A DNA stretch of 64,000 bases from Crossaster papposus. Its lineage: Eukaryota > Echinodermata > Asteroidea > Velatida > Solasteridae. The position numbers and the translations under genes were made by a program. Below, piece after piece: positions 6,269 to 51,116 of the stretch (position 1 is the first letter of the stretch; the number at the start of each line of letters is the position of its first letter). Below the pieces are notes generated by a model, which saw nothing but the letters and a program-made list of their open reading frames with translations, was not told the origin of the DNA and ran no database searches. The stretch is from assembly GCA_037893245.1 (NCBI GenBank), contig JBAIAA010000251.1:620001-684000 (forward strand). Direction: 5' to 3'.

Positions 6269-6487
6269 TTTTATGTTGTGCCACTAGCTTGATTTCTGCA
6301 TTAATTTAATTTTTCAAAAGCAACTAAATCTACCTTCATTTTTCAATACAATCTAGCTAGCTAGCTACCTTCATTCAGTTCTTGCTGCCTCCTCTCTACC
6401 TCCTGCAAAGCACACTCCCAGGAACTGTACACTGTAAATAAAAAAAAAATTCTAAAGGTGAATTAATCTTAACTTGACTCATTTTAG

Positions 6488-6766
6488 AATAATATTGAAT
6501 TACCCCTGCTGATGATGGTGAAGGCTCAAACCTCCCCTAGTTCGTCTTCCACATCCTCTATGCCTCCACTAGATGAAGAGGCGAGTCTATCCCATTCCAG
6601 AGAGACATCCCCACCCCCAAAAAAGATGAGGGTGGCAACCGTCCGGGTCCACACTTCGACGCAGACTTGGCTGGATGGCAAAGTCGTCGCCTCCGAAGAG
6701 AACAACCGGATGTTCTACAAGCAAGTCGTCGTCGATGAGGATGGACGTCCCGTAAACACCCAGTAA
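6488..6766 (+). CDS. Small terminal exon, unknown protein (copy 2 unit)
   Basis: The frame is open from a possible splice acceptor (ttttag, 6482-6487) through an ATG at 6512 to TAA at 6764-6766, encoding 84 aa from that ATG. The product is Ser/Pro-rich first (SSSSTSSMPPLDEE), then has a basic PPPKKMR patch and an acidic-polar tail (VVVDEDGRPVNTQ). No known domain is recognised. The upstream sequence is pyrimidine-poor but has branch-point-like cttaac and ttgac. Because the flank also has a poly(A)-type signal, this looks like the last exon of a host or element gene carried along by the tandem duplication. It could instead be a standalone small ORF. The reading frame is preserved in all visible copies, which is weak support for coding. 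Confidence 0.45.
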   Translation, partial: NNIELPLLMMVKAQTSPSSSSTSSMPPLDEEASLSHSRETSPPPKKMRVATVRVHTSTQTWLDGKVVASEENNRMFYKQVVVDEDGRPVNTQ

Positions 6767-7802
6767 ACGACGCGTTCTAGTTTAGTTAGTTTTTGTATTC
6801 AACCAAAGTATTTTTCTAAGTTTTCTAAGTGTTCCAAAGTTATATAAGTTTATAAGTTAAGCGTTTTGTCGATAAAGTTAAAATAAATATATATATTTAT
6901 AATAATAAAGATCAGTTAATTTACCCGAAGAAATCTCTTTAAAATTCTGCGACGTAAATGTAAAAATTTGGGAAGTTGATGTACACAGAAATTAGTTTGT
7001 ATAAATAAGAAATTTATTCTAATGAAAACACTTAATTTCTGCAAAATGATTACTCCTAGAAATTATTAAGTGATTATCAGTATAACATTTGATAAGCGAA
7101 ATTACTTTTTGAACTTTTTTAGATAATTTGTAGTATAAAGTCTATCCAGAGAAAAAGTGGCATTGAGTAAAGTTCTAGTAAGGAAAAAGAAGAGAAAAAC
7201 AAAATTGGCGAATTCTTGGTTTCAAGTGTAAATTATATTTCAATTGAATCATGTAAGATGCCGTGTAGGGAAAATCTGAGCAAATTTTAGCGTTCTTTAA
7301 ATTCTGTAATAAAATCTTGTGAATATGTAATGAGCAAATTTTAGCGTTCTTTAAATTCTGTAATAAAATCTTGTGAATATATAATGAGCAAAATTTAGCG
7401 TTCTTGAAATCAAGCCGAAATCGGTGAATATTTAATGAGTTTAACTTTTTGATTGAATTTGATGAAGTTCAGAAGTATACACTTTCCTTTTAGTTATGGC
7501 TTGAAGAGTATGGGGACATTCTCTGCCATACTCGGGCCTGTGTGACGGAAAGTGTGTGGAGCCAATATAGTTGTGACGTCAGACGTATAGCACTAACGCT
7601 TAAGCCACAGTCGGACGTGACCGGTAGTTGCGCGCGCTGGCTGGGCGGAGCTTATTGCTTAGTAACTGGCTGTGCGGTGTGCGTGATTGGGTAAAAAAAG
7701 GCCCATAGGCTTAAGTACATGCATGCGTTTTGCATGGGGTGCGTGTTCACGCACGTACCGTACCTGTACCTGGGTGGTACATGTATAATGTTCGTGGTTA
7801 GT

Positions 7803-8608
7803 TGTTGGAGAGCTACTCAACAGATAAGACGTAGGTAACTCGTTTTATGCGACGCGTATGGATCGGTACATTGTTTACGCTAGCTTGCATGGTTGATGCG
7901 CAGCGGGTACAATGCTGTACGATTTGTACAAAGTCTGATTAGCTGTGCTGGGGTTACGCTGACATGTGTGGCTGATATGTCGTAAGTACAAAGCTTCTAC
8001 GGCTGTACGTTGCGAATACTGGCTTGTACATGGCGTAGCGAGTACCTTGCTATATGGACTGTACATTGCTAAGCTGCTGAATATTGTGCTCATGTATGCT
8101 GCGTTATTGCTCAATCACCGAAGCATTCATGGCGCTTGCGCATTGCTGCCTTCGCGGTTTAGTGCATTGTGGCTTAGGCGAGCAGTAGTTTATCTCTGAT
8201 AAGGACCCGACCCTTTCCAATAAAACCACTCACCCAATTCCTAGTTAATGTACATGATTGTTGTGAATAAATTATCTTCATTGTACAGTGTACCTACAAT
8301 ACAGTTGTCAAGGTGTCTTTGTTAAGGTTTATTGTGTAAGTAACAGAGAGTAATCGCAATCATCATAATCGGCGGTATATTTCCTCCAAAACGGACCTGC
8401 ACCCTTAGCCTTTTAGGTCGCTCTGATTGATCTCTCGTCTAGGGAAGAGCCTTGGGTTGGGAAGATTGTCGTCGCTTTAATAGGTGTCCGACTTATCCTA
8501 ACAGCCTTAGGTTGGCCCGGGGAGTTCCCGCCACAGTTATAACAACGTACTAGTTTACATATCATTAGTGGATATTGATGCGCATAGTAAATAGTCCATA
8601 TCATTACA
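7803..8608 (-). mobile_element. 3' LTR of Mag/SURL-like gypsy, copy 2 (806 bp)
   Basis: Same length and termini as the copy 1 LTR, with a few substitutions (for example ggaaag/ggggaag and gcgcggg/gcccggg). The outer flank is gtggttag, shared with copy 3. The polypurine tract lies at 8609-8624. Confidence 0.75.
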
Positions 8609-8861
8609 TCCCTCTTCTTCTGAAGAAAAGCTCTTAGGTTACAATATGCTTGTAATAAACATTCTCTTCTCTGGTCACCTATTGTTTAGTTGGCTGCAAT
8701 TCTTTAAAACAGTTAAGCTTCAATACTAAACTATTAAGCAATAACAACAATAAAAGTCACTAATATCAACTCATGCAAATAACGCTAACGCTAAATAAAA
8801 ATACGCATAGCACTGCTTTACGCATAATTTCGCATAATTATTATGCATGCTTGGGTTAAGT

Positions 8862-11135
8862 TTACAGGTCCAATTTAGTTGGTTTATTGACTGCACGACC
8901 AGATCGCGTAATGTATGGTTGTGTTGTGACATTTGGTTCTTTGGTTGTTTGTTTGATCAGTGGGCTGTTTTGTTCTTTTCCGGGGTTTCCTGTGGAATCT
9001 TCGAGTTCAAATGTAACTCTTTTCTTCATCCCTTCTTTCAACTGACGACGGTTTCGTCTCAATGTTTGACCATTCTCTGTTTGGACTATGTATGAGCGAG
9101 GTTCTGTGCTCTTACTTTGTACTGTGCCAGGAACCCATTGTTTCTTCGTGCTTGATTGTTTCTGGATGTATATGGGTTGTCCACTGTATAGAGGAGCCAG
9201 TTTGTGGGTGTTCTTGTCATAGTGTTGGCTTTGTTGTTCTTGTCTAGCTTCGAATCTTTGACGTATCTCATCCCTGTCTGTTGCGTTGTTGTGTATTTTG
9301 GTTGGCAATGTTGTTCGTATTTTTCTGCCATACAACAACTCAGCTGGTGATGGTAGGTGGTGATCAATAGGGGTTGCCCTAAGAATCATCAAGGCCTTCT
9401 GTATGTCAGTGTTTGACTGCTTTGCCTTTTTGATAGTGCGTTTGACTGTCTGAATGTTCCTTTCTATGAACCCATTGGATTGAGGATATCTGGGGGATGA
9501 TGTGGTATGTGTGAAATTCCAGTTGTTGGAGAAGTTGCGGAAAGTTTCACTATTGAAGTGTGGTCCATTGTCACTTATCAGTGTTTCAGGAATTCCTTGT
9601 TCTGCAAATATGTTTTTAAGCAGGCAGACAATGGTGTTGCTGTTAGAGTGACCTTTCGGTATTTTTCGCAAGATTGTGTACTTGGAATAGTAGTCAGCGA
9701 TGAGTAAGTATTCCTCATCACCTAGGAAGAAGATGTCGGCAGCTGTTGTCTGCCATGGTCGGTTTGGTATGACATGTGGTTTCATAGGTTCTGATGGTTG
9801 TGATTTGCTATGGGATTGACATATGTCACACGACCTTGTCATCTCTTCAATGTCATCATTGATGTTGTGCCAAAAGACACATGTCTTTGCTCTGAGCTGG
9901 GATTTGATTATGCCTTGGTGGGCTTCGTGTATGGTGTTGAGGATGTTTTGTCTTTCCACTTTGGGGATGACGATCCTCTGGCCTTTCATTATGAGCCCAT
10001 TCTCAATAGACAGCTTGTCCCGATATGCCCAGTATTTCCGCAGCGGTTTGGGAATCATCTGTCGGTTGTCTGGCCATCCATCCTGTATGATCTCGCGAAG
10101 GGCTGCGAGTTCTGTATCAGCATTTGTTGCTTCTTGCAGTTTGGACACCTTTTGATCAGAGAATTGAACATGGTGTACGCGTATTTCTTCTGTCTCTACC
10201 GGTGCTCCCGGTAGTGGATGGAGACGTGACAATGCATCTGCCAGTAGCATTTCTTTGCCTGGCTTGTATTTGATCTTCACATCGTACCCTTGGATTCGTA
10301 GTAGAAGTCTTTGCAGTCTTGGTGGTGCTGCACTGAGGTTTTTGATGTGGATCATTTCTAGGGGTTTGTGATCTGATTGGACAGTGAATGGTTTGCCATA
10401 TACGTATGTGTGGAATTTTTCGCAAGCATATACTATGGCTAGCATCTCACGTTCAATGTTGGCATATCTTTGCTCTGTATCGGTCAGCGCTTTGGATGCG
10501 AAGCAGATTGGTTTAGAGTCTTGCATTAGTGCTGCGCCGAGGCCTTTCAGTGAGGCATCAACTTGTAGGACGGTTTCTTTCTTCGGGTCGAAGTATGCCA
10601 GAGTAACTTCTTCACAAATGGCCTTCTTGATGTTGTCAATTGACATTTGATGTATTGGTAGCCATTCGTACTCACGATCTTGCTTCATCAGCTCTCTTAA
10701 AGGAGAAGAAAGTGTCGACAAGTTGGGTATGAATGGTGCCATGTATGTGGCAATGCCAAGGAACTGTTGTAATTCCTTTGTATTCTTCGGCGGTGTGATA
10801 GACTCGATGGACTTCACTTTTTCTGGGTCCGGGTGTGCTCCTTTAGCACTGTAGACAATGCCGAAGAATTTGATCTGTGGTTTCTTGATCTCGCACTTGT
10901 CTATGTTGAAGACAAGGCCATGTTCTCGTGCAACCTTCATTAGGTTGTGTAGGTGTTCATCATGCTCCGACTCAGTCTTGCCAAAGACTCCAACATCGTC
11001 TGCTATACCGACTGTGCCTGGACACTTCTCTAGGATTTGGTCCATCTTTTGTTGAAATATGTCTTGACTGACACATAGCCCAAAGGGAAGCCTAGTGAAG
11101 CGAAATCTTCCAAAGTCAGAATAAGTCAGACACAT
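8862..11135 (-). pseudogene. pol: 5'-truncated gypsy pol, tandem copy 2
   Basis: The second duplicate of the 757-codon truncated pol has the same breakpoint and the same accidental MCLTYSD start. All RT palm, RNase H and integrase motifs described for copy 1 are intact, and no stop or frameshift is seen, so the truncation is the only defect. Gag, protease and PBS are absent, so it could be mobilised only in trans, if at all. Confidence 0.9.
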
Positions 11136-11354
11136 TTTTATGTTGTGCCACTAGCTTGATTTCTGCATTAATTTAATTTTTCAAAAGCAACTAAATCTAC
11201 CTTCATTTTTCAATACAATCTAGCTAGCTAGCTACCTTCATTCAGTTCTTGCTGCCTCCTCTCTACCTCCTGCAAAGCACACTCCCAGGAACTGTACACT
11301 GTAAATAAAAAAAAAATTATAAAGGTGAATTAATCTTAACTTGACTCATTTTAG

Positions 11355-11633
11355 AATAATATTGAATCACCCCTGCTGATGATGGTGAAGGCTCAAACCT
11401 CCCCTAGTTCGTCTTCCACATCCTCTATGCCTCCACTAGATGAAGAGGCGAGTCTATCCCATTCCAGAGAGACATCCCCACCCCCAAAAAAGATGAGGGT
11501 GGCAACCGTCCGGGTCCACACTTCGACGCAGACTTGGCTGGATGGCAAAGTCGTCGCCTCCGAAGAGAACAACCGGATGTTCTACAAGCAAGTCGTCGTC
11601 GATGAGGATGGACGTCCCGTAAACACCCAGTAA
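11355..11633 (+). CDS. Small terminal exon, unknown protein (copy 3 unit)
   Basis: The 84-aa product encoded from the ATG at 11379 is identical to that of the exon at 6488-6766. The same acceptor (ttttag) precedes it. Upstream there is one base change (gaatcacc against gaattacc). The function is unknown. Confidence 0.45.
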   Translation, partial: NNIESPLLMMVKAQTSPSSSSTSSMPPLDEEASLSHSRETSPPPKKMRVATVRVHTSTQTWLDGKVVASEENNRMFYKQVVVDEDGRPVNTQ

Positions 11634-12669
11634 ACGACGCGTTCTAGTTTAGTTAGTTTTTGTATTCAACCAAAGTATTTTTCTAAGTTTTCTAAGTGTT
11701 CCAAAGTTATATAAGTTTATAAGTTAAGCGTTTTGTCGATAAAGTTAAAATAAATATATATATTTATAATAATAAAGATCAGTTAATTTACCCGAAGAAA
11801 TCTCTTTAAAATTCTGCGACGTAAATGTAAAAATTTGGGAAGTTGATGTACACAGAAATTAGTTTGTATAAATAAGAAATTTATTCTAATGAAAACACTT
11901 AATTTCTGCAAAATGATTACTCCTAGAAATTATTAAGTGATTATCAGTATAACATTTGATAAGCGAAATTACTTTTTGAACTTTTTTAGATAATTTGTAG
12001 TATAAAGTCTATCCAGAGAAAAAGTGGCATTGAGTAAAGTTCTAGTAAGGAAAAAGAAGAGAAAAACAAAATTGGCGAATTCTTGGTTTCAAGTGTAAAT
12101 TATATTTCAATTGAATCATGTAAGATGCCGTGTATGAAAAATCTGAGCAAATTTTAGCGTTCTTTAAATTCTGTAATAAAATCTTGTGAATATGTAATGA
12201 GCAAATTTTAGCGTTCTTTAAATTCTGTAATAAAATCTTGTGAATATATAATGAGCAAAATTTAGCGTTCTTGAAATCAAGCCGAAATCGGTGAATATTT
12301 AATGAGTTTAACTTTTTGATTGAATTTGATGAAGTTCAGAAGTATACACTTTCCTTTTAGTTATGGCTTGAAGAGTATGGGGACATTCTCTGCCATACTC
12401 GGGCCTGTGTGACGGAAAGTGTGTGGAGCCAATATAGTTGTGACGTCAGACGTATAGCACTAACGCTTAAGCCACAGTCGGACGTGACCGGTAGTTGCGC
12501 GCGCTGGCTGGGCGGAGCTTATTGCTTAGTAACTGGCTGTGCGGTGTGCGTGATTGGGTAAAAAAAGGCCCATAGGCTTAAGTACATGCATGCGTTTTGC
12601 ATGGGGTGCGTGTTCACGCACGTACCGTACCTGTACCTGGGTGGTACATGTATAATGTTCGTGGTTAGT

Positions 12670-13475
12670 TGTTGGAGAGCTACTCAACAGATAAGACGTA
12701 GGTAACTCGTTTTATGCGACGCGTATGGATCGGTACATTGTTTACGCTAGCTTGCATGGTTGATGCGCAGCGGGTACAATGCTGTACGATTTGTACAAAG
12801 TCTGATTAGCTGTGCTGGGGTTACGCTGACATGTGTGGCTGATATGTCGTAAGTACAAAGCTTCTACGGCTGTACGTTGCGAATACTGGCTTGTACATGG
12901 CGTAGCGAGTACCTTGCTATATGGACTGTACATTGCTAAGCTGCTGAATATTGTGCTCATGTATGCTGCGTTATTGCTCAATCACCGAAGCATTCATGGC
13001 GCTTGCGCATTGCTGCCTTCGCGGTTTAGTGCATTGTGGCTTAGGCGAGCAGTAGTTTATCTCTGATAAGGACCCGACCCTTTCCAATAAAACCACTCAC
13101 CCAATTCCTAGTTAATGTACATGATTGTTGTGAATAAATTATCTTCATTGTACAGTGTACCTACAATACAGTTGTCAAGGTGTCTTTGTTAAGGTTTATT
13201 GTGTAAGTAACAGAGAGTAATCGCAATCATCATAATCGGCGGTATATTTCCTCCAAAACGGACCTGCACCCTTAGCCTTTTAGGTCGCTCTGATTGATCT
13301 CTCGTCTAGGGAAGAGCCTTGGGTTGGGAAGATTGTCGTCGCTTTAATAGGTGTCCGACTTATCCTAACAGCCTTAGGTTGGCCCGGGGAGTTCCCGCCA
13401 CAGTTATAACAACGTACTAGTTTACATATCATTAGTGGATATTGATGCGCATAGTAAATAGTCCATATCATTACA
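12670..13475 (-). mobile_element. 3' LTR of the full-length Mag/SURL-like gypsy (806 bp)
   Basis: TG...CA ends on the minus strand, with a polypurine tract immediately upstream (13476-13491). Only its first 73 bp (13403-13475) match the element's 5' LTR at 18855-18927, with two visible mismatches. The remaining 733 bp have no counterpart there. Identical LTRs are expected after normal reverse transcription, so this element looks recombinant. Confidence 0.7.
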
Positions 13476-13728
13476 TCCCTCTTCTTCTGAAGAAAAGCTC
13501 TTAGGTTACAATATGCTTGTAATAAACATTCTCTTCTCTGGTCACCTATTGTTTAGTTGGCTGCAATTCTTTAAAACGGTTAAGCTTCAATACTAAACTA
13601 TTAAGCAATAACAACAATAAAAGTCACTAATATCAACTCATGCAAATAACGCTAACGCTAAATAAAAATACGCATAGCACTGCTTTACGCATAATTTCGC
13701 ATAATTATTATGCATGCTTGGGTTAAGT

Positions 13729-16700
13729 TTACAGGTCCAATTTAGTTGGTTTATTGACTGCACGACCAGATCGCGTAATGTATGGTTGTGTTGTGACATT
13801 TGGTTCTTTGGTTGTTTGTTTGATCAGTGGGCTGTTTTGTTCTTTTCCGGGGTTTCCTGTGGAATCTTCGAGTTCAAATGTAACTCTTTTCTTCATCCCT
13901 TCTTTCAACTGACGACGGTTTCGTCTCAATGTTTGACCATTCTCTGTTTGGACTATGTATGAGCGAGGTTCTGTGCTCTTACTTTGTACTGTGCCAGGAA
14001 CCCATTGTTTCTTCGTGCTTGATTGTTTCTGGATGTATATGGGTTGTCCACTGTATAGAGGAGCCAGTTTGTGGGTGTTCTTGTCATAGTGTTGGCTTTG
14101 TTGTTCTTGTCTAGCTTCGAATCTTTGACGTATCTCATCCCTGTCTGTTGCGTTGTTGTGTATTTTGGTTGGCAATGTTGTTCGTATTTTTCTGCCATAC
14201 AACAACTCAGCTGGTGATGGTAGGTGGTGATCAATAGGGGTTGCCCTAAGAATCATCAAGGCCTTCTGTATGTCAGTGTTTGACTGCTTTGCCTTTTTGA
14301 TAGTGCGTTTGACTGTCTGAATGTTCCTTTCTATGAACCCATTGGATTGAGGATATCTGGGGGATGATGTGGTATGTGTGAAATTCCAGTTGTTGGAGAA
14401 GTTGCGGAAAGTTTCACTATTGAAGTGTGGTCCATTGTCACTTATCAGTGTTTCAGGAATTCCTTGTTCTGCAAATATGTTTTTAAGCAGGCAGACAATG
14501 GTGTTGCTGTTAGAGTGACCTTTCGGTATTTTTCGCAAGATTGTGTACTTGGAATAGTAGTCAGCGATGAGTAAGTATTCCTTATCACCTAGGAAGAAGA
14601 TGTCGGCAGCTGTTGTCTGCCATGGTCGGTTTGGTATGACATGTGGTTTCATAGGTTCTGATGGTTGTGATTTGCTATGGGATTGACATATGTCACACGA
14701 CCTTGTCATCTCTTCAATGTCATCATTGATGTTGTGCCAAAAGACACATGTCTTTGCTCTGAGCTGGGATTTGATTATGCCTTGGTGGGCTTCGTGTATG
14801 GTGTTGAGGATGTTTTGTCTTTCCACTTTGGGGATGACGATCCTCTGGCCTTTCATTATGAGCCCATTCTCAATAGACAGCTTGTCCCGATATGCCCAGT
14901 ATTTCCGCAGCGGTTTGGGAATCATCTGTCGGTTGTCTGGCCATCCATCCTGTATGATCTCGCGAAGGGCTGCGAGTTCTGTATCAGCATTTGTTGCTTC
15001 TTGCAGTTTGGACACCTTTTGATCAGAGAATTGAACATGGTGTACGCGTATTTCTTCTGTCTCTACCGGTGCTCCCGGTAGTGGATGGAGACGTGACAAT
15101 GCATCTGCCAGTAGCATTTCTTTGCCTGGCTTGTATTTGATCTTCACATCGTACCCTTGGATTCGTAGTAGAAGTCTTTGCAGTCTTGGTGGTGCTGCAC
15201 TGAGGTTTTTGATGTGGATCATTTCTAGGGGTTTGTGATCTGATTGGACAGTGAATGGTTTGCCATATACGTATGTGTGGAATTTTTCGCAAGCATATAC
15301 TATGGCTAGCATCTCACGTTCAATGTTGGCATATCTTTGCTCTGTATCGGTCAGCGCTTTGGATGCGAAGCAGATTGGTTTAGAGTCTTGCATTAGTGCT
15401 GCGCCGAGGCCTTTCAGTGAGGCATCAACTTGTAGGACGGTTTCTTTCTTCGGGTCGAAGTATGCCAGAGTAACTTCTTCACAAATGGCCTTCTTGATGT
15501 TGTCAATTGACATTTGATGTATTGGTAGCCATTCGTACTCACGATCTTGCTTCATCAGCTCTCTTAAAGGAGAAGAAAGTGTCGACAAGTTGGGTATGAA
15601 TGGTGCCATGTATGTGGCAATGCCAAGGAACTGTTGTAATTCCTTTGTATTCTTCGGCGGTGTGATAGACTCGATGGACTTCACTTTTTCTGGGTCCGGG
15701 TGTGCTCCTTTAGCACTGTAGACAATGCCGAAGAATTTGATCTGTGGTTTCTTGATCTCGCACTTGTCTATGTTGAAGACAAGGCCATGTTCTCGTGCAA
15801 CCTTCATTAGGTTGTGTAGGTGTTCATCATGCTCCGACTCAGTCTTGCCAAAGACTCCAACATCGTCTGCTATACCGACTGTGCCTGGACACTTCTCTAG
15901 GATTTGGTCCATCTTTTGCTGAAATATGTCTTGACTGACACATAGCCCAAAGGGAAGCCTAGTGAAGCGAAATCTTCCAAAGGGACTGTTGAATGTCGTG
16001 AGCATGCTCGATTCTCGATCAAGGGAAACTGACCAATAACCATGTCTGGCATCAAGTTTGGAGAAGATTGTACTTCCAGCAAACTTGTATGTGACCTCCT
16101 CTAATGTGGGGGTGTGGTGGTGGCTGCGCTTTATAGCTGCGTTTAGGTCTTTTGGGTCTAGACAGACGCGCCATCTTCCGTTTGGTTTCTGTGAATATGC
16201 CAAGCTTGAAACCCAATCTGTAGGTTCAATTACGGGTGTTATTACCCCTAACTTGATCATGTCATCCAATTCTTTCTTTATGTCATCTTTAATTTGGACA
16301 GGGCATCTTCTGGCCGCATGGACAACAGGTGGAACTTCTGGGTTTACCACAATATGGTACTCTCCGTCGAAGTTGCCAATACCTTCAAATCTATCTGGGT
16401 ACAGTCGCTGTAGGTCTTGTTTTGAGTTGACCTTTGTCAATGACTGTGTCTGTGTCTCTTGAATGCTGCAATTTAGTGAAACAACTTTCAGCTCGAGGCA
16501 TGATGGTAGGCCCAGTATGGCAGGACCTTGGACATCTGCAATGTAGAATTCTGTATTCTCATTTTTCTCTTTGTGTCTGCATGGTACTTTTATTGTACCA
16601 TAGTGTGGGATTGTTGTTCCATTGTATGCCGTGAGTACCGTTTTCTGTTTTGTACTTTTGTCTTGTTTTGGAAAACCCGTGCTATCGAGTTTCCTTGGGT

Positions 16701-17751
16701 ACATTCTACGGAATATGCGGAGTGGCAAGATGTTACCTTGGGCACCAGTGTCGACTTTTACTTTGAGTGTAGCAGGATTAGGTTTGTCATCTAGCTTTAT
16801 GTCTAGTACTGCATAAGCTTCATCTTGTTTAATGTTGGTGTGACCAATATGATTTATCTGTATAGACTCAAAACTTAGTTGGTCTAAGGCATCTTGGATC
16901 TGAGGTTCATCACCTTGATTGACTGTACTGACATTTTTGCTTTGTGTGAATTTCTGCCTACCCCTACTCCTACTTCGGAATTTTGGACGCGTACCATATG
17001 TTGGTTTGTCCTGTGTTTGCTTGCGAAATCTGCATACGCTCTGCCAATGGTTGGTTTTGCCGCAGGACCTGCACGTACTGCCGTGTGCAGGGCATTTTGC
17101 TTTCGCATGCTGCAGACCACATTTGCCGCAGTTAGCTGCTTGTGGTCGCGATGGTGCTCTTTTGCTTTTGTATCGCATTGCATCAACATTCAATTTTTCG
17201 CTTTGTTGTAGCTCGTGCATGTGTTGCAGGGTAGCTTCTTTGGTTCGTGCCAAGTCCATCGCTTGGTCAAGAGTGAGTGAATCATCTTTTGCAAGCAAGA
17301 TCTCTTGGATTTTCTTAATCTTAGTGCCAATGACTAATTGCTCGATGAGTCTCTCTTCACACTCAGCAATGCTGAATTTGCAACGCTTAGCTTGTATTTT
17401 GCATCTTGTCATATATTCATCTACCGATTCATTTTCGGTTTGTTTGAACTTTTGCAAATTGAAGCGATTCAGTCGGAAATTTGACTTTGGTTCAAAATGT
17501 TTCTCGAATTTAGTCATTATGGCTTTCGGATCATTTTGTTCATTATCTTCAATTTTCCATGTATTGAAGATGTCAATACCTGCTTGACCCAACCATAACA
17601 GTAGGTAATTGACACGTTCTGTTTCAGACTTTTTGGACAGGGGGCCTTGAAACACAAGCTCACAGTAGGCCTTGAATTGATTAAATGCAGTCGATTGATC
17701 TGCTGCATCCCAGTCCATATGGGGTGGTGTTATACCTGACATTTCCCCCAT
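13729..17751 (-). CDS. gag-pol: Full Gag-Pol polyprotein, Mag/SURL-like Ty3/gypsy
   Basis: This single 1,340-codon frame makes all proteins for retrotransposition of an LTR element. Visible in order: a Gag capsid-like region (about 1-200, including LLLWLGQAGIDIFNTW), two zinc knuckles (CGKCGLQHAKAKC, then CRSCGKTNHWQSVC, about 208-242), an aspartic protease (VKVDTGAQGNILPL, about 335), RT (KLDARHGYW, LPFGLCVS, IADDVG with Ile before the ADD), RNase H (DASLKGLGAAL, SDHKPLE) and integrase (HHCC finger, then AADIF, ISDNGPHF, NGFIERN as D,D,E). No chromodomain or env follows. A fused gag-pol in one frame is typical of the Mag/SURL clade. The frame starts at ATG 17751, about 980 bp after the primer site. 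No stop or frameshift is seen, so it looks coding-competent. It is the parent of the two truncated copies to its left. Confidence 0.95.
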   Translation of the reverse strand: MGEMSGITPPHMDWDAADQSTAFNQFKAYCELVFQGPLSKKSETERVNYLLLWLGQAGIDIFNTWKIEDNEQNDPKAIMTKFEKHFEPKSNFRLNRFNLQKFKQTENESVDEYMTRCKIQAKRCKFSIAECEERLIEQLVIGTKIKKIQEILLAKDDSLTLDQAMDLARTKEATLQHMHELQQSEKLNVDAMRYKSKRAPSRPQAANCGKCGLQHAKAKCPAHGSTCRSCGKTNHWQSVCRFRKQTQDKPTYGTRPKFRSRSRGRQKFTQSKNVSTVNQGDEPQIQDALDQLSFESIQINHIGHTNIKQDEAYAVLDIKLDDKPNPATLKVKVDTGAQGNILPLRIFRRMYPRKLDSTGFPKQDKSTKQKTVLTAYNGTTIPHYGTIKVPCRHKEKNENTEFYIADVQGPAILGLPSCLELKVVSLNCSIQETQTQSLTKVNSKQDLQRLYPDRFEGIGNFDGEYHIVVNPEVPPVVHAARRCPVQIKDDIKKELDDMIKLGVITPVIEPTDWVSSLAYSQKPNGRWRVCLDPKDLNAAIKRSHHHTPTLEEVTYKFAGSTIFSKLDARHGYWSVSLDRESSMLTTFNSPFGRFRFTRLPFGLCVSQDIFQQKMDQILEKCPGTVGIADDVGVFGKTESEHDEHLHNLMKVAREHGLVFNIDKCEIKKPQIKFFGIVYSAKGAHPDPEKVKSIESITPPKNTKELQQFLGIATYMAPFIPNLSTLSSPLRELMKQDREYEWLPIHQMSIDNIKKAICEEVTLAYFDPKKETVLQVDASLKGLGAALMQDSKPICFASKALTDTEQRYANIEREMLAIVYACEKFHTYVYGKPFTVQSDHKPLEMIHIKNLSAAPPRLQRLLLRIQGYDVKIKYKPGKEMLLADALSRLHPLPGAPVETEEIRVHHVQFSDQKVSKLQEATNADTELAALREIIQDGWPDNRQMIPKPLRKYWAYRDKLSIENGLIMKGQRIVIPKVERQNILNTIHEAHQGIIKSQLRAKTCVFWHNINDDIEEMTRSCDICQSHSKSQPSEPMKPHVIPNRPWQTTAADIFFLGDKEYLLIADYYSKYTILRKIPKGHSNSNTIVCLLKNIFAEQGIPETLISDNGPHFNSETFRNFSNNWNFTHTTSSPRYPQSNGFIERNIQTVKRTIKKAKQSNTDIQKALMILRATPIDHHLPSPAELLYGRKIRTTLPTKIHNNATDRDEIRQRFEARQEQQSQHYDKNTHKLAPLYSGQPIYIQKQSSTKKQWVPGTVQSKSTEPRSYIVQTENGQTLRRNRRQLKEGMKKRVTFELEDSTGNPGKEQNSPLIKQTTKEPNVTTQPYITRSGRAVNKPTKLDL

Positions 17752-18732
17752 TTTGACTTAGTTACCCTTCAGGTATCGGTTCAATTTGCATAAAAACTAT
17801 TGTACTCTTTACACAACAGAAATTGTTAACAACAACAGTAAAATATTGTTAAGTATATCAGCTGGTAATTAAATGTACATGTTACATTTCACAGAACAAT
17901 TTGAACAATGATATTCGGCAAGGATATAATATTTCTGCAGAACTGTCAAAATGTTCAACTGTTGTCTGTAGTACCAGTACCGTTCAGCTGTTGAATTGTT
18001 CGCTGTACATGTCTAGTGTAGCGGTGGTGGTCTCCCGTCCCGGTCATCATGTACTTTAACGTGATTTCCAGCGTTTTGATGTACGTGTTGGACGTTCACC
18101 AGTTCCGTTGTTGCGCCGGTTGTCCGTTGTACGTCTTTCTTATTTGCACTTGCGTGGTGCCGTGGTCTCTCCACTTCGTGTTTTCGGTTGAAAGGGACGA
18201 AACTCTCGGTCTCTCCACTCGGCTCGTACGCGGTTTTGTTGGCTCGAACTCGCAAGTTCAGTGCCGGAGTTTCTCGGATAGGTGCTGTGGCGGTCGGCTG
18301 CCCGTCCGGATTCCTGTCACTTTTCATACATGACTGTGTAGAACAGCGGTGTGTCCAGTCTATCAATGTTGCATCTTGGCCTATGTCACATATCGCTGTA
18401 GAGGCGGTCTGGGATCCTTCCTCTTCTGCAGGAACTCAAAGTTCACATGCGGGGACCAGACTCAGAGCACGTCATACGATGCGTCTTGTCAGCTTACCAG
18501 CTTTTCACCAGCATATCAATGCGCCGCAATTTCAATCCCAAACTCTAGTGGCACGGGACGGACGGCCTGTACGGTGCATTCCTTGCGCACAGCGTGTATT
18601 GCAGCATGTGCGTGCTTGGCTAGGCTTGGCGCTCGGTTGGCGAGTGTCAGCTGAAGTTCACATAGTGAAAGTTATGAGGAGTGTTCCGGCGAGGCTGTTC
18701 ATCTTTGCCAAAGCAGTCCAGCAGGGGCTACT
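17752..18732 (-). other. 5' leader of the gypsy element between PBS and gag
   Basis: About 980 bp lie between the primer site and the gag ATG. It contains antisense and sense ORFs (for example a 117-codon minus-strand frame at 18013-18366) without recognisable domains. It is treated as untranslated leader. Confidence 0.55.
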
Positions 18733-25501: not shown

Positions 25502-25629
25502 TCGCGCGCGCGCCCGTCCCCGTAAAGTGAGACGTACACGTTCACGTATGACTCGCGCCACGGAACAAGTTTCGGCACCCAGTCTTCTTCGCGGTCCGTA
25601 TCGATAGGTGGCGCTGTTAGTCACTCAAC

Positions 25630-26739
25630 ATGGCTGCCCCCCTACCAAAACGGAGACGCTTGTTGCTAGCTGCGTTATCTGACTTTGACGTTGAGGAAAT
25701 TGCGTTCCTGCACTCGTACGGCAAAAGAAAAAGGCAGTCGACCTTCGCAAATTACGAGAAATTTGATTTCGATAGGATTACGGCGTCGCAGTGTAAGGAA
25801 AAGTTCCGTTTTGAAAAGCAGCACGTAAAACTCTTGGCTAATAAACTTGGCATACCTACCGTTGTGCACTGTTCAGACAGAACGGCAGTTGAAGGATATG
25901 AAGCACTGTGTATCGTCCTCAGACGGTTAGCATACCCGAGCAGATTGAGTGATCTAGAACAGGTATTTGGAAGACCTGTGTCGGCTCTTTCAGTGATTAT
26001 AAACACCACAGTGGAGATTATCTGGGAGCAGAAAGGCTTCCTGCTTTCAGACCTTCAGCAGGATTGGCTGAAACATAGACTAGAAGATTATGCCACAGCC
26101 ATTTATTCAAGAGGAGCACCCCTGAACAATGTGTGGGGATTTGTGGATGGTACTGTGAGGCCTATTTGTCGTCCAACAGAAGGTCAGCGGCAATGTTACA
26201 ATGGGCACAAGCGCACCCATGCCCTAAAATTTCAGAGCATCGTAACTCCAGATGGCCTGATTGCAAACATGTACGGTCCAACTGAAGGTAGACGCCACGA
26301 TTCAGGAATCCTCAGGATGAGTGGTATTCAGGATACCATCAAGCACTTCAGAGCATCTGACAATTCTCAGCTGTCTTTGTATGCCGACACAGCTTACCCA
26401 CTAAGGAGAGAATTGATTGTTGGATACAAGGGCGCCCACTTGACCGATGAGGAGCGTGAATTCAATGCTCAGATGTCAAAGGTTCGCGTTTCTGTGGAGT
26501 GGGGATTTGGGAAACTGATAGAAGAATTTAGGTTCTTAGACTTCAAGAAGAACTTGAAGCTGCTTCTTCAGCCTATGGGCATGTATTACTTGGTCGCAGC
26601 AATTCTCATCAACTGCCATACTTGTCTGTATGGATCGCCAACGGCAGACTACTTCGGTGTGCTTCCTCCATCACTGGATGAATATTTGCAGACAGAGGAA
26701 GATGACGAGGACTATCAGCTGTTGCATGAATTTGATTAG
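25630..26739 (+). CDS. Harbinger DDE transposase (369 aa)
   Basis: This gene encodes the nuclease that would cut and rejoin the element's ends. The protein begins with a basic MAAPLPKRRRR-type segment. A helical region (about 50-165) precedes the DDE_Tnp_4-type catalytic core: D173 in WGFVDGT, the conserved GRRHDSG at about 221, D253 in YADTAYP, and E290 in VRVSVEWGFG. Length and motif spacing fit HARBI1-like transposases. It is one exon, 129 bp from the left TIR, with ATG in the context aacATGgct. No stop or frameshift is present. The C-terminus is acidic (TEEDDEDYQ). It would work with the Myb-like protein from the convergent gene, which in this family helps nuclear import and TIR binding. 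Confidence 0.95.
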   Translation: MAAPLPKRRRLLLAALSDFDVEEIAFLHSYGKRKRQSTFANYEKFDFDRITASQCKEKFRFEKQHVKLLANKLGIPTVVHCSDRTAVEGYEALCIVLRRLAYPSRLSDLEQVFGRPVSALSVIINTTVEIIWEQKGFLLSDLQQDWLKHRLEDYATAIYSRGAPLNNVWGFVDGTVRPICRPTEGQRQCYNGHKRTHALKFQSIVTPDGLIANMYGPTEGRRHDSGILRMSGIQDTIKHFRASDNSQLSLYADTAYPLRRELIVGYKGAHLTDEEREFNAQMSKVRVSVEWGFGKLIEEFRFLDFKKNLKLLLQPMGMYYLVAAILINCHTCLYGSPTADYFGVLPPSLDEYLQTEEDDEDYQLLHEFD

Positions 26740-43561: not shown

Positions 43562-43787
43562 AACAAATACTCATAATAGCATCCATAACATTCTTGTTCT
43601 TTGAGTACATTTAATTGAAGAGAGTACATTTAATTGAAGAAAGTTCATTTAATTGAAGAAAGTTCATTTAATTAACCTTATACTACATGTATATAAATGA
43701 ATTGAATTGTTTAATGTTTGACTATGTGACTTAACTTGCTCAGTCACGAGTGTTGCCCAAGCAAACTTGATTTTCCAATTTGGCTAT
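43562..43787. other. Short spacer between two elements
   Basis: Contains three copies of agtacatttaattgaaga/agttcatttaattgaag (43599-43670). Ends with TAT (43785-43787), the target duplication of the next element. Confidence 0.6.
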
Positions 43788-43800
43788 TAGGCCGTGTTAC
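43788..43800 (+). repeat. Left TIR of Academ-like element
   Basis: TAGGCCGTGTTAC, perfect complement of the right end, followed by a partly matching ATGACCC. Confidence 0.8.
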
Positions 43801-44911
43801 ATGACCCAAAAAGATGCTCAGAAAATGACATCCGTGGTACCAGTTTGGGAACAAAACAAAAATTGTGCGATTCTACTTAGTTTGATCTACTGAATCCGAA
43901 AATCAATGTTGTCGGAGGCAAGGGAGGGTACATAACCTACTTTTTAAGCCTGTAAGAGACAGACCAAATGAGAGCTTTATCGAAGAAAATGTGACTGCTG
44001 AAACAACAAAGAATGATCTTCTCCACTGTTTATTTAGTTATTATTCGTTTAGACAATGTATTTGGTTTCGTAGAATCGTACAAATACATTTAACTCACTT
44101 TTGCAGTAATTATCTACTCGAAACAAATAAAATTAAATAAAAAAGACTTTGAACTTACATCGTTATCGGAGTCTTGGAAGTGAAATTATGACTTGTTACT
44201 AACTTGTGCTTTGATTCACTTATTCGTACCCACAATTTACTCATTTGCCTAAGATGTACTACATGTACATTGCATTTTTAAAAGTTTTTACCATGTTTCT
44301 TCTTAGGCTTCATAATTGTGTAGTCTATAAATTGCAAACCATTCCTGCTGTTGCTCTGTGCCAAAATTTAAACAAATTAAATTGAAAAGAAATAGAAACT
44401 GTTGTTGGTGGGTTTTTGTGAGTCAATGTAAACATTCACATTGTCACTGTAACAAAAATGGCAAATGTTATTCTGACAAAAATTAAATCAAATAGTATAA
44501 ATTGTAAGACAGGTTTTTGTTGTGAAAATCTACTAATATTATAGTCGACGGAACTCAATTTTATATTTCAGAATTAACCAGTTTGTTAATTATTTAGGAT
44601 TATTGTAGGGGAGACCGAGCCCAGGCGCGGAATTTTTTCAACGCCTTGCTTGTGGCGTATTTATGCATAATATCACGTAGGTGAACTTTTATAAGCATTA
44701 CATATACTATAAACAAATACAAAGTAACAAATTTCCCTCAGCACAATGTTTTTAAAGTGCTAAGAAATCACACTTTACTACAGCTTACTACATCTTACAT
44801 TTAAAAGTTTGATACATTGGTGAGGTAGGGGGTTCAAAAGCAATGTAAGTTTTAAAGTGTACATCTATGTTTAACAGGAATGGCACAACGATCAAAGCGC
44901 AACGACTTGTG
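43801..44911. other. 3' flank of the PIN/CXC gene inside the element
   Basis: Mostly A-T-rich with no gene seen. Includes a short G+C-rich patch (gagaccgagcccaggcgcgg at about 44611) and would hold the gene's polyadenylation region. Confidence 0.5.
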
Positions 44912-47900
44912 CTAATTTGACAAAAAATCATCGTCCTCGGAATCACTTTCACTATCTTCATTAAGAATGGCTGTTTCTTGCTCTGTGTCGATCACATTCT
45001 CACAGCCCACACATGAGCAGACATCAGTGCATGATACCTCTCCTGACCGACAGGAACACCTTTTGGAAGAACATTTTGTCTTCTTGCAACTACATGATGC
45101 ACTCTTCATGAGTTCAGCTGGAGCTTGTTCCTGTGTCATCCATCGTATAGCAATGGTGTTCTCGCTAATAATCCAACCATGATCTGCAGGGGATGGAACA
45201 TCGATATTTCGTTGGAGAGCTCGGCGATCAATTGCCGCCTGGTAGTTAGCCCTCTTTGAATGCTGAAATAAGGCATTTTGTGATGGAGGTAGCCTTTGCT
45301 CGGTAAATTGGTTTAAACAGAAAAGTCTGTAACGGGCCTCATTTACTGAAGATAGACTTTGACCATATAGATCACACACAAAACGTTCCATCACATTAGC
45401 CACCTCCCCTGCCAACTGGAATTCTCTTCCCATCTTCACAAAAGCATCTTGGTAGCTAGAGTCAGCGTTGAGAAGTTCAAAAGCCCTTTTTTTGCCTTTA
45501 CCAAAGAATGCACTGGTGGAGTCTGCACCTGTGAAAACGTGTAAGGCAATCAATGCTTCTGAAATGGTTGGGCCCATCTGTTCAGACATTGATGAAATGT
45601 TAATCAACCTCCGACTGCCACTACCTCCCGTTTCAACTAAAAGAGTTGCTGGTATACTTTGAACATGAGCCAGTGCAATCATTACCACATCAGAATCTGG
45701 ACTGCTAATTAGCACATCTTTATACGCTGAGGCTGCATGATGAGCATGTAGCAATAGTCGTGTATCTGCCTCAATGTGATCGGAATGTAATTCAGGTATC
45801 TCTCTTACGACCGTTTCTTCTGCATCCGATGTTAGTAAGTGGCACTTGTTACCGTGAGCAACCACAAACTCGACCATACCAGGTACTTCCAACAGAACAT
45901 GCACTGCAGATGTCCACTCTTTGAACAGGAATTCAACCAATTCTGCCTTGTTGCGACCACCAGCTAAGAAAGCATTCCAACGGCTTGGCATTTTTTTATC
46001 TGACTTGTATATGTGTTGAACTATCGGTGCATGTCCAGCTGAGCGGCGGTGTTGTTCCACAGTCTTTATGGAGGTCTCTGGATACCTGTCAAATACAATG
46101 TCCACTCTACTGTATTGCCATACCTCAACCAAGTGCATAATTCGATCCAAAAGAGCACTCCCGAATTTACCAAATGTCTCAGGAAGTTTGGAAGCTGGTA
46201 AACTATGAACCAGGGCCATTCCATCAATGATCAGAGCTGCTCCCTTTGGTGTCTTCTCTTGATTGTCGGGCCATTTCTTTTCGATGAGGGTGAGCAACTG
46301 TGCTTTATTAGTCTTAGCTAATGATCCATCAGAGCAGACAAGAGGATATGACACTGGTCCAAGGCAATACGAGAGAATCTTCTTCATGTTGAGCTTGTTC
46401 TGCTGTCCCAACATCAACATCCGTGTAAAGAGTTTACGATCTGATATTTCACCTCCAGCTTTATCTTTTTTCCTTGTTTTTTGCAGATTTGCAAAGGTTC
46501 TCAAATTCAACCGCTTTATCGGTTCATGGAAACTTACAGGTTTGTTGGCGAATCTTTTCTTGAAGTCCTCATATGCCTCATTGCCAACCTTTTGTGCACT
46601 CATCAAATCATCCTCACACCCACTTGTTGCAACAGCCACCGAACAAATGTTTACCAGTTCAGAAGGAGCAGATGAGAAGGGATTGAGGAAATTTCCAATT
46701 GTTTCAACGACCCTTTCAACTTTCTTCTCATCTCGCTTTCTGCGTGAACCATCTAGATCTTTCCTGCCACGACTTTCATCATGAAGTCCCCCAAATATCT
46801 CACACTGATGGGTCATTTCAGCTCTATCTGGTTGAGACAAGAACCACCTCTTGAAAGAATTGGGCCGTAGAGTTATTCCAACGACACCACCAGCGGTTTT
46901 GCAGTCCCGATTGACTGTCTGCTCAATCACCTGGTCCATTGCTGTGGCTGAAAAACTGTAACGGTCTTGTTGCTGGACAACCCATTCTCCTGCCTCTAGG
47001 TGCTCATACGTGAATGGGTGTGTGGTCTGAATGTTTTCCATTTCCTTCAGGTACACTGAAACATACCGGGAGTAGTGAGTTCTATCATAAGCAAAGAACC
47101 ATGGCACCATCTTTTTTAACCAGTACTGGTGGCTGTCCCAATCTCTTGTTCGTGTGCTTCGGATGAATTGAAATAGATTCTCAACCATTTCGATGAAGGA
47201 GGACCAGAATGCGAATGTTTTGGATTCATCACATTGCGTTTTGCAGAAGGCTTGGTAATTGCTGACCAATTCCTGGACGTCGGTGCAAGATACCTTTTCA
47301 TCAAAGGCAAGAGAAGGAAAGATGTGGATCAAACCTTGTAAATGTTGATTTACTATAGCCTGCTTGTTGTCACTGAGAGTTTCAAGGAAAGCTGCAAACC
47401 TCATCCGTTCCATTGCCTCAAATACGATCTTATGTGCCGAAATTGCACGGTTGTAGTGGCGACCCTCCAACACAGCATTCACTGACCCTTGACTAATAAG
47501 TCCAGATTCAATAATAATATCCAGCAAACCTGTATCACGGAATCTTTTGCCAAGAACTGCAAGATAGCTCAAGCATGTGTGGAATTCCCCCAAACGAATT
47601 ACAATACGCTCTTGCAATACCGTGTCAGCCCAACGAATCTCCTGAGCCTTGATATATATGGCCATATCAAATACCACAACAACATTGGGAATCTTTAATT
47701 CATCTGCAATTTCTACACTCTTATGAAGAAGTGTATTTGCTGTGTCAAACTCGGTTGGTGACGCCTCTATTGCAGTTAAATAGCCTATTTTGGCCTTAAG
47801 CAGAATATCATTTCTGTGCAGCAGAGTGTTATATCCAGTCCAACCAGGAATTGTAGCACCTCGATCAACAAATTTGATCATGATGTATATAATGTCAGTT

Positions 47901-48584
47901 ACCATAGCACTGTTAATTTTCTCTTCATTAACTGATGCGATTTCTGCTGAACTTTCTACAATAGGCCCTGTTCGTTTTTTCCGCCGATACGGAACTAAAG
48001 CCACAGTGCTGGTCTTGAGAACATGCTGACGCTTTGGTAGGTTAGGACGATCTCGATCTCTAGCCTCAGAATCCTCTGTATGGGCCATCTGAACAATGAT
48101 TCCATTTGTATGGTGCGTAGTGCCTTTTCCTGTTGTGGTTTCTTCATTGAAATCAATATTATCAAATCCAAGTAGAGCATGCCCTTGTGAAAAACCTTGA
48201 GGTAATAGGGTACCACTTTGATCAGCTTTTAGCTGGGCCAACGCTGTCTCCATTGCCACAATAGTAGGACTTTACACACAGTGTCCCAGACCATTTAGCA
48301 TATTTATAACCTTCTAGAGAAGAAGAAATTGATTCATTTATACAAAAGAGTACAATATATGAGATATGAGAAGGATTAGTTGTGGGGGGAGGGGGGGGTA
48401 ATATTTTGCAGATGTCACTTTGTATTGATGTGTTTTTTTTGGGTTTTTTCAGTACAAGGGTCCACTAAAGAAATCTTAGAAATAATTGGAACCAGAAATG
48501 TTGCCAGTCTAAAATGAAAAATCAAGGAAATTAAACAAAAACATATGATTTACCTATTTACTGCACAGTTAGGACAGAGTGGGT

Positions 48585-48625
<41 letters not shown>

Positions 48626-50181
48626 CTATAAGGATTTGGCCACGTTTGGAAGTAATAGACGCATTACTTCCAAAGAAGACTGGGAATAACATGCAAGTGC
48701 ACCCCCCCCCCCCCCCAAGCATGGTGATACCTTGGCTGTGCCACCACATGCACACATTACAGGAAATTTGTGCCTGCTCGTACATGTAGCTTCTGAAGCA
48801 AAAAGTCTGGTCACTTATGTATAGCTGGAGGCATCCAGTCCCAATGTCCTAGCGAAGTCGGTGAACTTTGTCAGCAGCGATTTCAGTGTAGCCGGCTTCT
48901 TCTTCTTGATGAGAATTGGCTCAATGAGCAAACTGCAGAACTGTTCAAAAACATGTTGAAAAAGTCTATCCGATAGTCCAGGAGATGCTCTAAATAAAAT
49001 TAAACAAAACGGAAAACCTTCACTTGTTAACATGGACAATTTAGTGACCTTCACTTATTCTGTCAATTTTCATGAGAAATGTGATGGTTGGGGAGGGGGA
49101 TTCCTGCTGTCACAGTGTTTGGTCTAATAACTTATTTTACTCAAAAAAGATGGATTTCAATTATTAAGTAAATTATTAAACTCACCGAGGTGCATGCACT
49201 CTGTAGATATCCTTCGTATATTTGTCATAGCAGTTTCTGTGATATCGTACTTCGATAGCCACACAATTTTTATCACGGATTTGACGCAGCACACTTTCAT
49301 CTTGCTTTAATTCAGCAGCCTTCCGAAGCTGTCCTGCACAAAATAAAAAACATGTCAGAGGGCCTCATACAGTAAATCAGTCATATCAAAATAATATGCA
49401 TTTGGATACAACATACATACAGTAAAGTTTAAGGTGTGGAAGTTTTGTTTATCTAACACTGGATATTGGACAAAGCTGGGTCCTATTATGAAATCAACAT
49501 ACACCTATTAAATTACACTTAGATCGAGAGTATATAGTACCGAGTACTGCTACTGAACTTTAGCATCAATAGCAATTTGTTCATTGGCTGGCTTCACAGG
49601 AACAAACATGAAATAAGATAAAACGACAGCATAAATGCTAGCCAAACAAAAAATGTGCCCAAACGTGACAGGAATCAATCTTAGAATAAGCATAATTATG
49701 ACTCACCTCCATCTGTTGTTTGGGCTAGACTCATCTGGTCTCGAACTTTTTTCCTTGATTTCCAAATAAGGCTTTCCTTTTGGTCACAGATGATACACAA
49801 TGGTGGCAAGACATGTGAAGACCTTGCAAGAGAGCTACTCTGCGAAATGACTGACGATGATCTAAGCATTTTTGTACTGGTACTCGTACTCGATTCTCCT
49901 TTCTCCTCCCCTTCCACTTGACCTTGACTTCGTGGCCTCTTTGCTCTTTTTCTAAATATATTGGTCTTATTGGTGAATTGTGAGTAGCATTTGCGATGGT
50001 ATCCAAACCTGCCAGAGATTTCTTCAAAGGGCTTCGACCATTCGGCATCCCAACGTTCAACAACTTCATGTTCTTGGCAATTATCGATATCTTTCCATGA
50101 TTCTGTACATGAAGTTACTTTCTCCCAGCTTTTACCAGCGCCACCGTTTTTTCGAGCGCCACCGCGCGGGCGTGCAGCTGT
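44912..50181 (-). pseudogene. PIN/FEN-like nuclease with CXC domain, decayed multi-exon gene
   Basis: Exons from the minus strand: 49707 to about 50181, 49186-49333, up to 48989 (stop 48815-48817), and a large last exon 44912 to about 48313. Exons 1 and 2 encode repeated zinc-type motifs (FGYHRKCYSQFTNK; LCIICDQKE then RYHRNCYDKYTK). The last exon has GFDNIDFNEETTTGKGTTH and then a FEN/XPG-type PIN series: IIDGMALVH (about 678 of the 1,115-codon frame), HIEADTRLLLHA (830), SSPDSDVVMIAL (857) and FTGADSTSAFFGKGKK (914). A cysteine-rich CSCKKTKC...CSC...CSCVGC follows (about 1050), resembling tesmin/TSO1 CXC. Defects: in-frame TAA at 48272-48274, no clear start, and no good donor after exon 3, where a poly-G tract lies. 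Nearly all of the frame is otherwise open. Close relatives are usually annotated uncharacterised. Confidence 0.75.
48585..48624 (+). repeat. 40-bp G homopolymer
   Basis: An uninterrupted run of about 40 G after gggt, with a 15-bp C run 80 bp later (48703-48717). Run lengths are assembly-dependent. Lies in the gap between exons 3 and 4 of the PIN/CXC gene. Confidence 0.85.
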
Positions 50182-50613
50182 TTATTTATTTGGTATGGAC
50201 CGCCGCGTCGTACATAAATAAAGTGGTGGGTTGACTGATAAAATAATTGCAGACAAGTAAATGTTTGTACATTTGCGCTTTGTTCTTTACAACATATCAT
50301 TTCCAAGAAACAATATGTAGTTTTGTATCAATAAAGTAAAATTTCTGTTTTGTTAACGAATATTTGTTTTATTTATTACATCGATTTTGTTTTGTTCAAA
50401 CGGCTGTCCATACAGTGCCAATTAAATGGTCAACTGTGACGTCAGCATTTAAGGACCAAAAACGGGATTTTCGAGGCCGAGTTTAGGCCCTTTGTACCCT
50501 TCGATTTCTTTGACAAGTTGGATTTTGTTATTCCCAATGGTTTTATCTATGTGTGGGAAAATGTTCATTCTGTTCCCCGTCAGGTACCACCAGGCAACAC
50601 GATAAACGGGCAC

Positions 50614-50626
50614 GTAACACGGCCTA
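50614..50626 (-). repeat. Right TIR of Academ-like element
   Basis: GTAACACGGCCTA on the plus strand is the exact reverse complement of the left TIR and is followed by TAT. The interior just left (50191-50613) holds no convincing exon, although the gene's first exon may lie there. Confidence 0.8.
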
Positions 50627-50629
50627 TAT

Positions 50630-51116
50630 GGGATTTTTCAAAAGAACGGCCATCTAAATAGACCTACTGTATGACTTGTGATTATGGAAGCGATAGCCTA
50701 CGTGTACATGGCTGGTTACATGCAATTCTCCTGAAATCACGTCATACTTTGAAAAAACTCATGGCTCATTTTATAATATAATACACTCATTTTAAGGGGT
50801 GTATATAAACGTGAATATAGATCAATCAAAATGGATATTTTAAGGGGGTGAATGTTGTTCTGGGTTCCTCGTGGAATGTTCGTGGATTTCTTGTGGATTT
50901 AATGGATTGTTCTTGGATTTCGTGGATTTGTGCAATTCTCACGCCAGATGTTAAAGGAAACTTTAAAATGGAGACACTAAAAATTCAATTCAAATGTATT
51001 TCATAACTTCTTTTAGATCATTTTGTAAATTATCGGCCTGTACTGGCTAGTTAGTTGGACATTGAATTGACAATAAATTTACAGTGACGTAAATTCACAA
51101 TTGTGTGCAAGACAAG
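50630..51116. other. Non-coding spacer
   Basis: A-T-rich with short direct repeats of gtggattt/tcttggatttcgtggat (50880-50935). No gene is recognised. Confidence 0.4.

Follow-up and report, generated by a model that had tools for sequence, protein, structure and literature searches.

The locus studied here raises the question of how a DNA element is mobilised when its only evident gene encodes a nuclease. The window, meaning the whole stretch of 64,000 nucleotides of Crossaster papposus DNA that was analysed, contains on contig C251 an element of 6,839 bp (43788-50626) with its gene on the minus strand. A sequence-only reading had described 13-bp terminal inverted repeats (TIRs), an inverted subterminal block, a TAT target duplication and a single gene for a PIN/FEN-like nuclease plus CXC protein, with no DDE or other standard transposase inside. 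It left two alternatives, that the N-terminal half of the protein hides the transposase or that the PIN/CXC protein itself moves the element, and named the Academ superfamily as the likely home.

The borders proved to be as described. The left TIR TAGGCCGTGTTAC (43788-43800, plus strand) is a perfect inverted match over 13 bp to the right TIR GTAACACGGCCTA (50614-50626, minus strand), and the arms run on to 19 nt at 89% match. The left copy of the subterminal block (43834-43853, plus strand) matches the inverted right copy (50571-50590, minus strand) at 16 of 20 positions, the two being set back by 46 and 36 bases from the termini of the element. TAT is present on both flanks (43785-43787 and 50627-50629). 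A 44-base run in the non-coding part of the element (48581-48624), 95% G, is possibly unstable or misassembled. Elsewhere in the window, three pol-like open frames of retroelement type, closely resembling one another, follow each other along the minus strand (3995-17757), alongside a 54-bp repeat array that recurs at 574, 7277 and 12144; an open frame of 372 aa (25621-26739) resembles, as we judge by eye, a Harbinger-type transposase.

Evidence that these borders are those of a mobile element comes from the 1.02-Gb assembly containing contig C251, in which the first 613 bases of the element match at least 41 places (36 of them over approximately the first 158 bases only) and the last 327 bases match at least 40. 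Left and right stretches were taken for 21 copies, namely those with both ends among the matches listed and seven with a guessed right end; four of these seven were dropped because the right end fell outside the stretch taken, and 17 paired-end copies were scored. An exact 3-bp duplication lies flush with the TIRs in 12 of the 17. When, as a control, the left flank of one copy was paired with the right flank of another, a 3-bp duplication was found in 7/272, and when one flank was slid by 1 or 2 bases it was found in 0-1 of 17. The five exceptions are the copies on C616, C305, C153, C246 and C890. The empty site of C616 fits either a duplication of 4 bp with one base added or one of 3 bp with two, the computed overlap of 5 being due to an odd base bridged in the comparison, and the flanks of C305 read CAA/CAA once an extra TA is allowed. 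These two copies apparently carry one or two extra bases beside one TIR, a reading backed for C616 by the empty site. The copies on C1616 and C616 represent the same insertion, with a right flank identical over the 100 bases compared, so that one of them is probably an alternative haplotype or an assembly duplicate.

Empty sites were searched for four of 11 copies prepared for this purpose (window, C616, C343 and C259) and found for three. The element in the window is inserted in a repeat: its flanks (43668-43787 and 50627-50749), joined around one TAT, are matched on three further contigs (C605, C117 and C21) over 240/240 bases at 100%, each with a single TAT and no element between the flanks, which corroborates the target duplication claimed. 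C616 has two empty sites at 91%; those of C343 lie within a high-copy repeat, and the two inspected both have a single AAA. For C259, the genome search with joined flanks returned no empty site. Two copies of ~2.8 kb, on C305 and C363, share 94% identity, match the window element at its two ends only at the sensitivity used, and contain no frame longer than 136 codons. They are members of a non-autonomous family that shares the ends of the element and is presumably moved in trans.

The coding capacity of the window element is spread over several segments of the minus strand. The main open frame of the last exon (44912-48271) encodes 1,119 aa, in which the open reading frame and the predicted structure place, in order, a DDE transposase core, a FEN/XPG nuclease and a CXC domain. 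It is preceded by an in-frame stop (48272-48274) in a segment where 10/10 aligned relatives read through, and upstream of the stop the last exon continues with a coding segment bearing the conserved LLNxLGHC (48275-48313), identified by tblastn with the 10 relatives. The window element is a damaged copy. Further upstream, an exon with YHRNCYDKYTK (49186-49333), like the N-termini of relatives, is covered by homology at 49203-49355 at most, its splice signals being chosen by eye; another, containing YHRKCYSQFTNK (49707-50001), is supported by tblastn with a splice signal read by eye, and its 5' limit and start codon are provisional. A putative exon at ~48827-48983, drawn by eye, was left out of the model, as tblastn with relatives gave it no homology support. 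The nearest relatives of the window copy (C343, C616 and C1616) have shortened frames.

A Pfam scan of the window protein names no transposase domain, and Foldseek alone gave no significant match for its N-terminal half. In the predicted model, the closest solved folds are the P-element and Hermes transposases, and among homologues D37/D40, D202 and E450 are invariant or nearly so. From predicted structure, fold comparison and conservation, we infer that residues 1-500 (46772-48271, minus strand) form an RNase H-fold DDE transposase of P/hAT-like type, with D37/D40, D202, H231 and E450 in a catalytic core that a large helical insertion interrupts. Neither the statement that the element holds no DDE transposase nor the idea that the nuclease/CXC protein alone moves it finds support in this model. 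The first alternative, a transposase hidden in the N-terminal half, is the one that agrees with it. Pfam DUF6589 matches 8/36 members of the homologue alignment at E <= 0.01 within the transposase core (P0017, P0052 and others), the window protein not being among the eight. In two members inspected, the match (E near 1e-5) scores below Pfam's own cut-off and falls roughly over the stretch between D202 and E450. DUF6589 is probably a piece of the transposase of this element, and the overlap suggests that the Pfam family covers part of an Academ-type transposase; a literature search turned up no paper using the name.

The C-terminal half agrees with the earlier description. Residues 655-1028 (45188-46309, minus strand) are predicted, from structure, fold comparison and conservation, to form a FEN1/EXO1/XPG-like 5' nuclease, in which seven acidic positions (D683, D728, E834, D836, D859, D861 and D917), fully or nearly fully conserved, are those we take to correspond to the FEN1 active-site residues. 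The CXC (Tesmin/TSO1-like) domain follows at residues 1059-1092 (44996-45097, minus strand), with a Pfam TCR match (E 4.9e-5 in the scan of the last-exon frame), similarity to lin-54, and conservation. With FEN1, EXO1 and XPG the nuclease shares fold and acidic active-site positions; it differs in lying within a transposon protein, at ~14% identity, with a CXC domain after it. Such conservation of the active site, together with the silence of Pfam on any transposase, is what might be expected if the FEN/XPG nuclease and CXC protein were itself the transposase, a nuclease-type recombinase to which the N-terminal half contributes only structure. We consider this very improbable, given the DDE-like fold of the N-terminal half, its invariant or nearly invariant acidic residues, and the short fixed duplications observed with inverted ends, a combination that usually marks strand transfer by a DDE enzyme.

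The distribution of the gene is relevant to whether it belongs to the element at all. It is multicopy, with at least 44 match rows in the genome (some copies give two rows); among the match rows listed, 17 have a frame that stays open for 1,200 codons or more and a match uninterrupted by stops, and other families of the gene in the same genome have long open frames. The gene copies on C343 and C616 sit between the same ends as the window element. A sister family, at ~43-45% protein identity, has related ends (TAGGCCGT) and 3- or 4-bp duplications of its own; both ends (TAGGCCGTA) were obtained for two of its copies, one of 8,198 bp at C251:529349-537546 with CGT/CGT and one on C7 with AATG/AATG. 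The sequence-only reading had named two grounds for its own refutation, gene copies without these ends and an absence of empty sites fitting a 3-bp duplication; it withstood both checks, the other copies having these or related ends and such empty sites being present. Named relatives are filed as uncharacterised or hypothetical animal proteins, a labelling that would suit a domesticated gene, or a gene of the host that had come to lie between transposon ends foreign to it. The same or related ends around the other copies, the duplications of the sister family and the copy number argue against a host gene so strongly that we give this explanation next to no credence. When the protein search was repeated with members that diverge further, it yielded at least 53 hits among the 7,992 candidates considered; several carry unrelated names, and the precomputed Pfam domains listed for these hits include no helicase. 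One relative, P0066, comes from a record assigned to a bacterial metagenome bin (Sedimenticola sp.) and is possibly host contamination. The predicted structural model, in which we are confident, links a set of such "uncharacterised" animal proteins to an Academ-type transposon.

What the DNA shows directly is a single protein of several domains, inverted ends, target duplications of 3 bp and empty sites that are exact. As to mechanism, predicted structure and conservation suggest that the N-terminal DDE transposase would cut the ends and join them to a staggered target. More tentatively, the fused FEN/XPG nuclease may process an intermediate that is branched or 5'-ended, and DNA could be bound by the Cys/His modules at the N-terminus and the CXC domain at the C-terminus. 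It can also be hypothesised that the nuclease takes an active part in cleaving the ends: the DDE core would cut the strand to be joined and no other, and the flap nuclease would remove the second strand. We regard this proposition as rather unlikely. In Tn7, strand cleavage is divided between TnsB and TnsA; speculatively, the division imagined here would resemble theirs, but in one eukaryotic polypeptide. If true, it would help to explain the 3-4 bp duplications of nuclease-bearing Academ elements as against the 9-10 bp of AcademH, and it might explain the extra end bases in 2/17 copies (C616 and C305). With its many copies, its empty sites and the residues singled out here, the family provides material for asking why a flap nuclease should be part of a transposon.

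Comparison with known systems places the element further. The P element and hAT (Hermes) transposases share with the predicted N-terminal half an RNase H core and a large helical insertion between the second D and the E. The hAT target duplication is 8 bp, and we know of no P element or hAT transposase with a fused FEN/XPG nuclease. The P element duplication is 7-8 bp (PMC5199201); the duplications of both systems are longer than the 3 bp of this element, and no 7-8-bp duplication of their kind was found at its copies. Zator also has a 3-bp target duplication (PMC10045372), a length shared by the element. The Pfam scan (E <= 10), which may miss remote kinship, returned no ISAzo13-related family, as for the Zator transposase.

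The nuclease of AcademX is of the XPG type; no paper naming Academ together with XPG was among the matches listed in our literature search. Repbase counts Academ among the DDD/E superfamilies (PMC9587614), and a transposase of this class is present here on the predicted structure, from model, fold and the residues D37/D40, D202 and E450. The Academ target duplication is given as 3 bp (PMC5199201), and that of AcademX as 3-4 bp against 9-10 bp in AcademH, a difference related to nuclease versus helicase (PMC10045372). With AcademH the element shares the superfamily name. It differs in its duplications, 3 bp at most copies and a single TAT at the empty sites of the window insertion, and in the lack of any helicase among the Pfam matches of the last-exon frame, the 161-aa upstream frame and the 36 members of the homologue alignment. 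Membership of Academ is based on domain plan and duplication length only, and among solved structures P-element and Hermes come nearest in fold, as might be the case for a transposon outside Academ, from a superfamily still without a name and close to P, hAT or Academ, that had acquired its nuclease by convergent fusion. We find this improbable, since domain plan and duplication length jointly match AcademX as printed (PMC10045372 and PMC5199201). It is instead very likely that the window holds a damaged DNA transposon of the cut-and-paste type, and that this copy belongs to AcademX, the nuclease-bearing lineage within the superfamily that the sequence-only reading had favoured. With AcademX, it has in common a predicted DDE transposase, a nuclease that is FEN/XPG-like by fold and conserved residues, and target duplications of 3-4 bp, as seen in the flush 3-bp copies and in the CGT and AATG of the sister family; no difference emerged in the features compared, the reference families being taken by description rather than by sequence. 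As every Academ feature that was compared was found, the element is classed, by the description of Academ, as a new family within a known type of transposon and not as a new type of mobile element.
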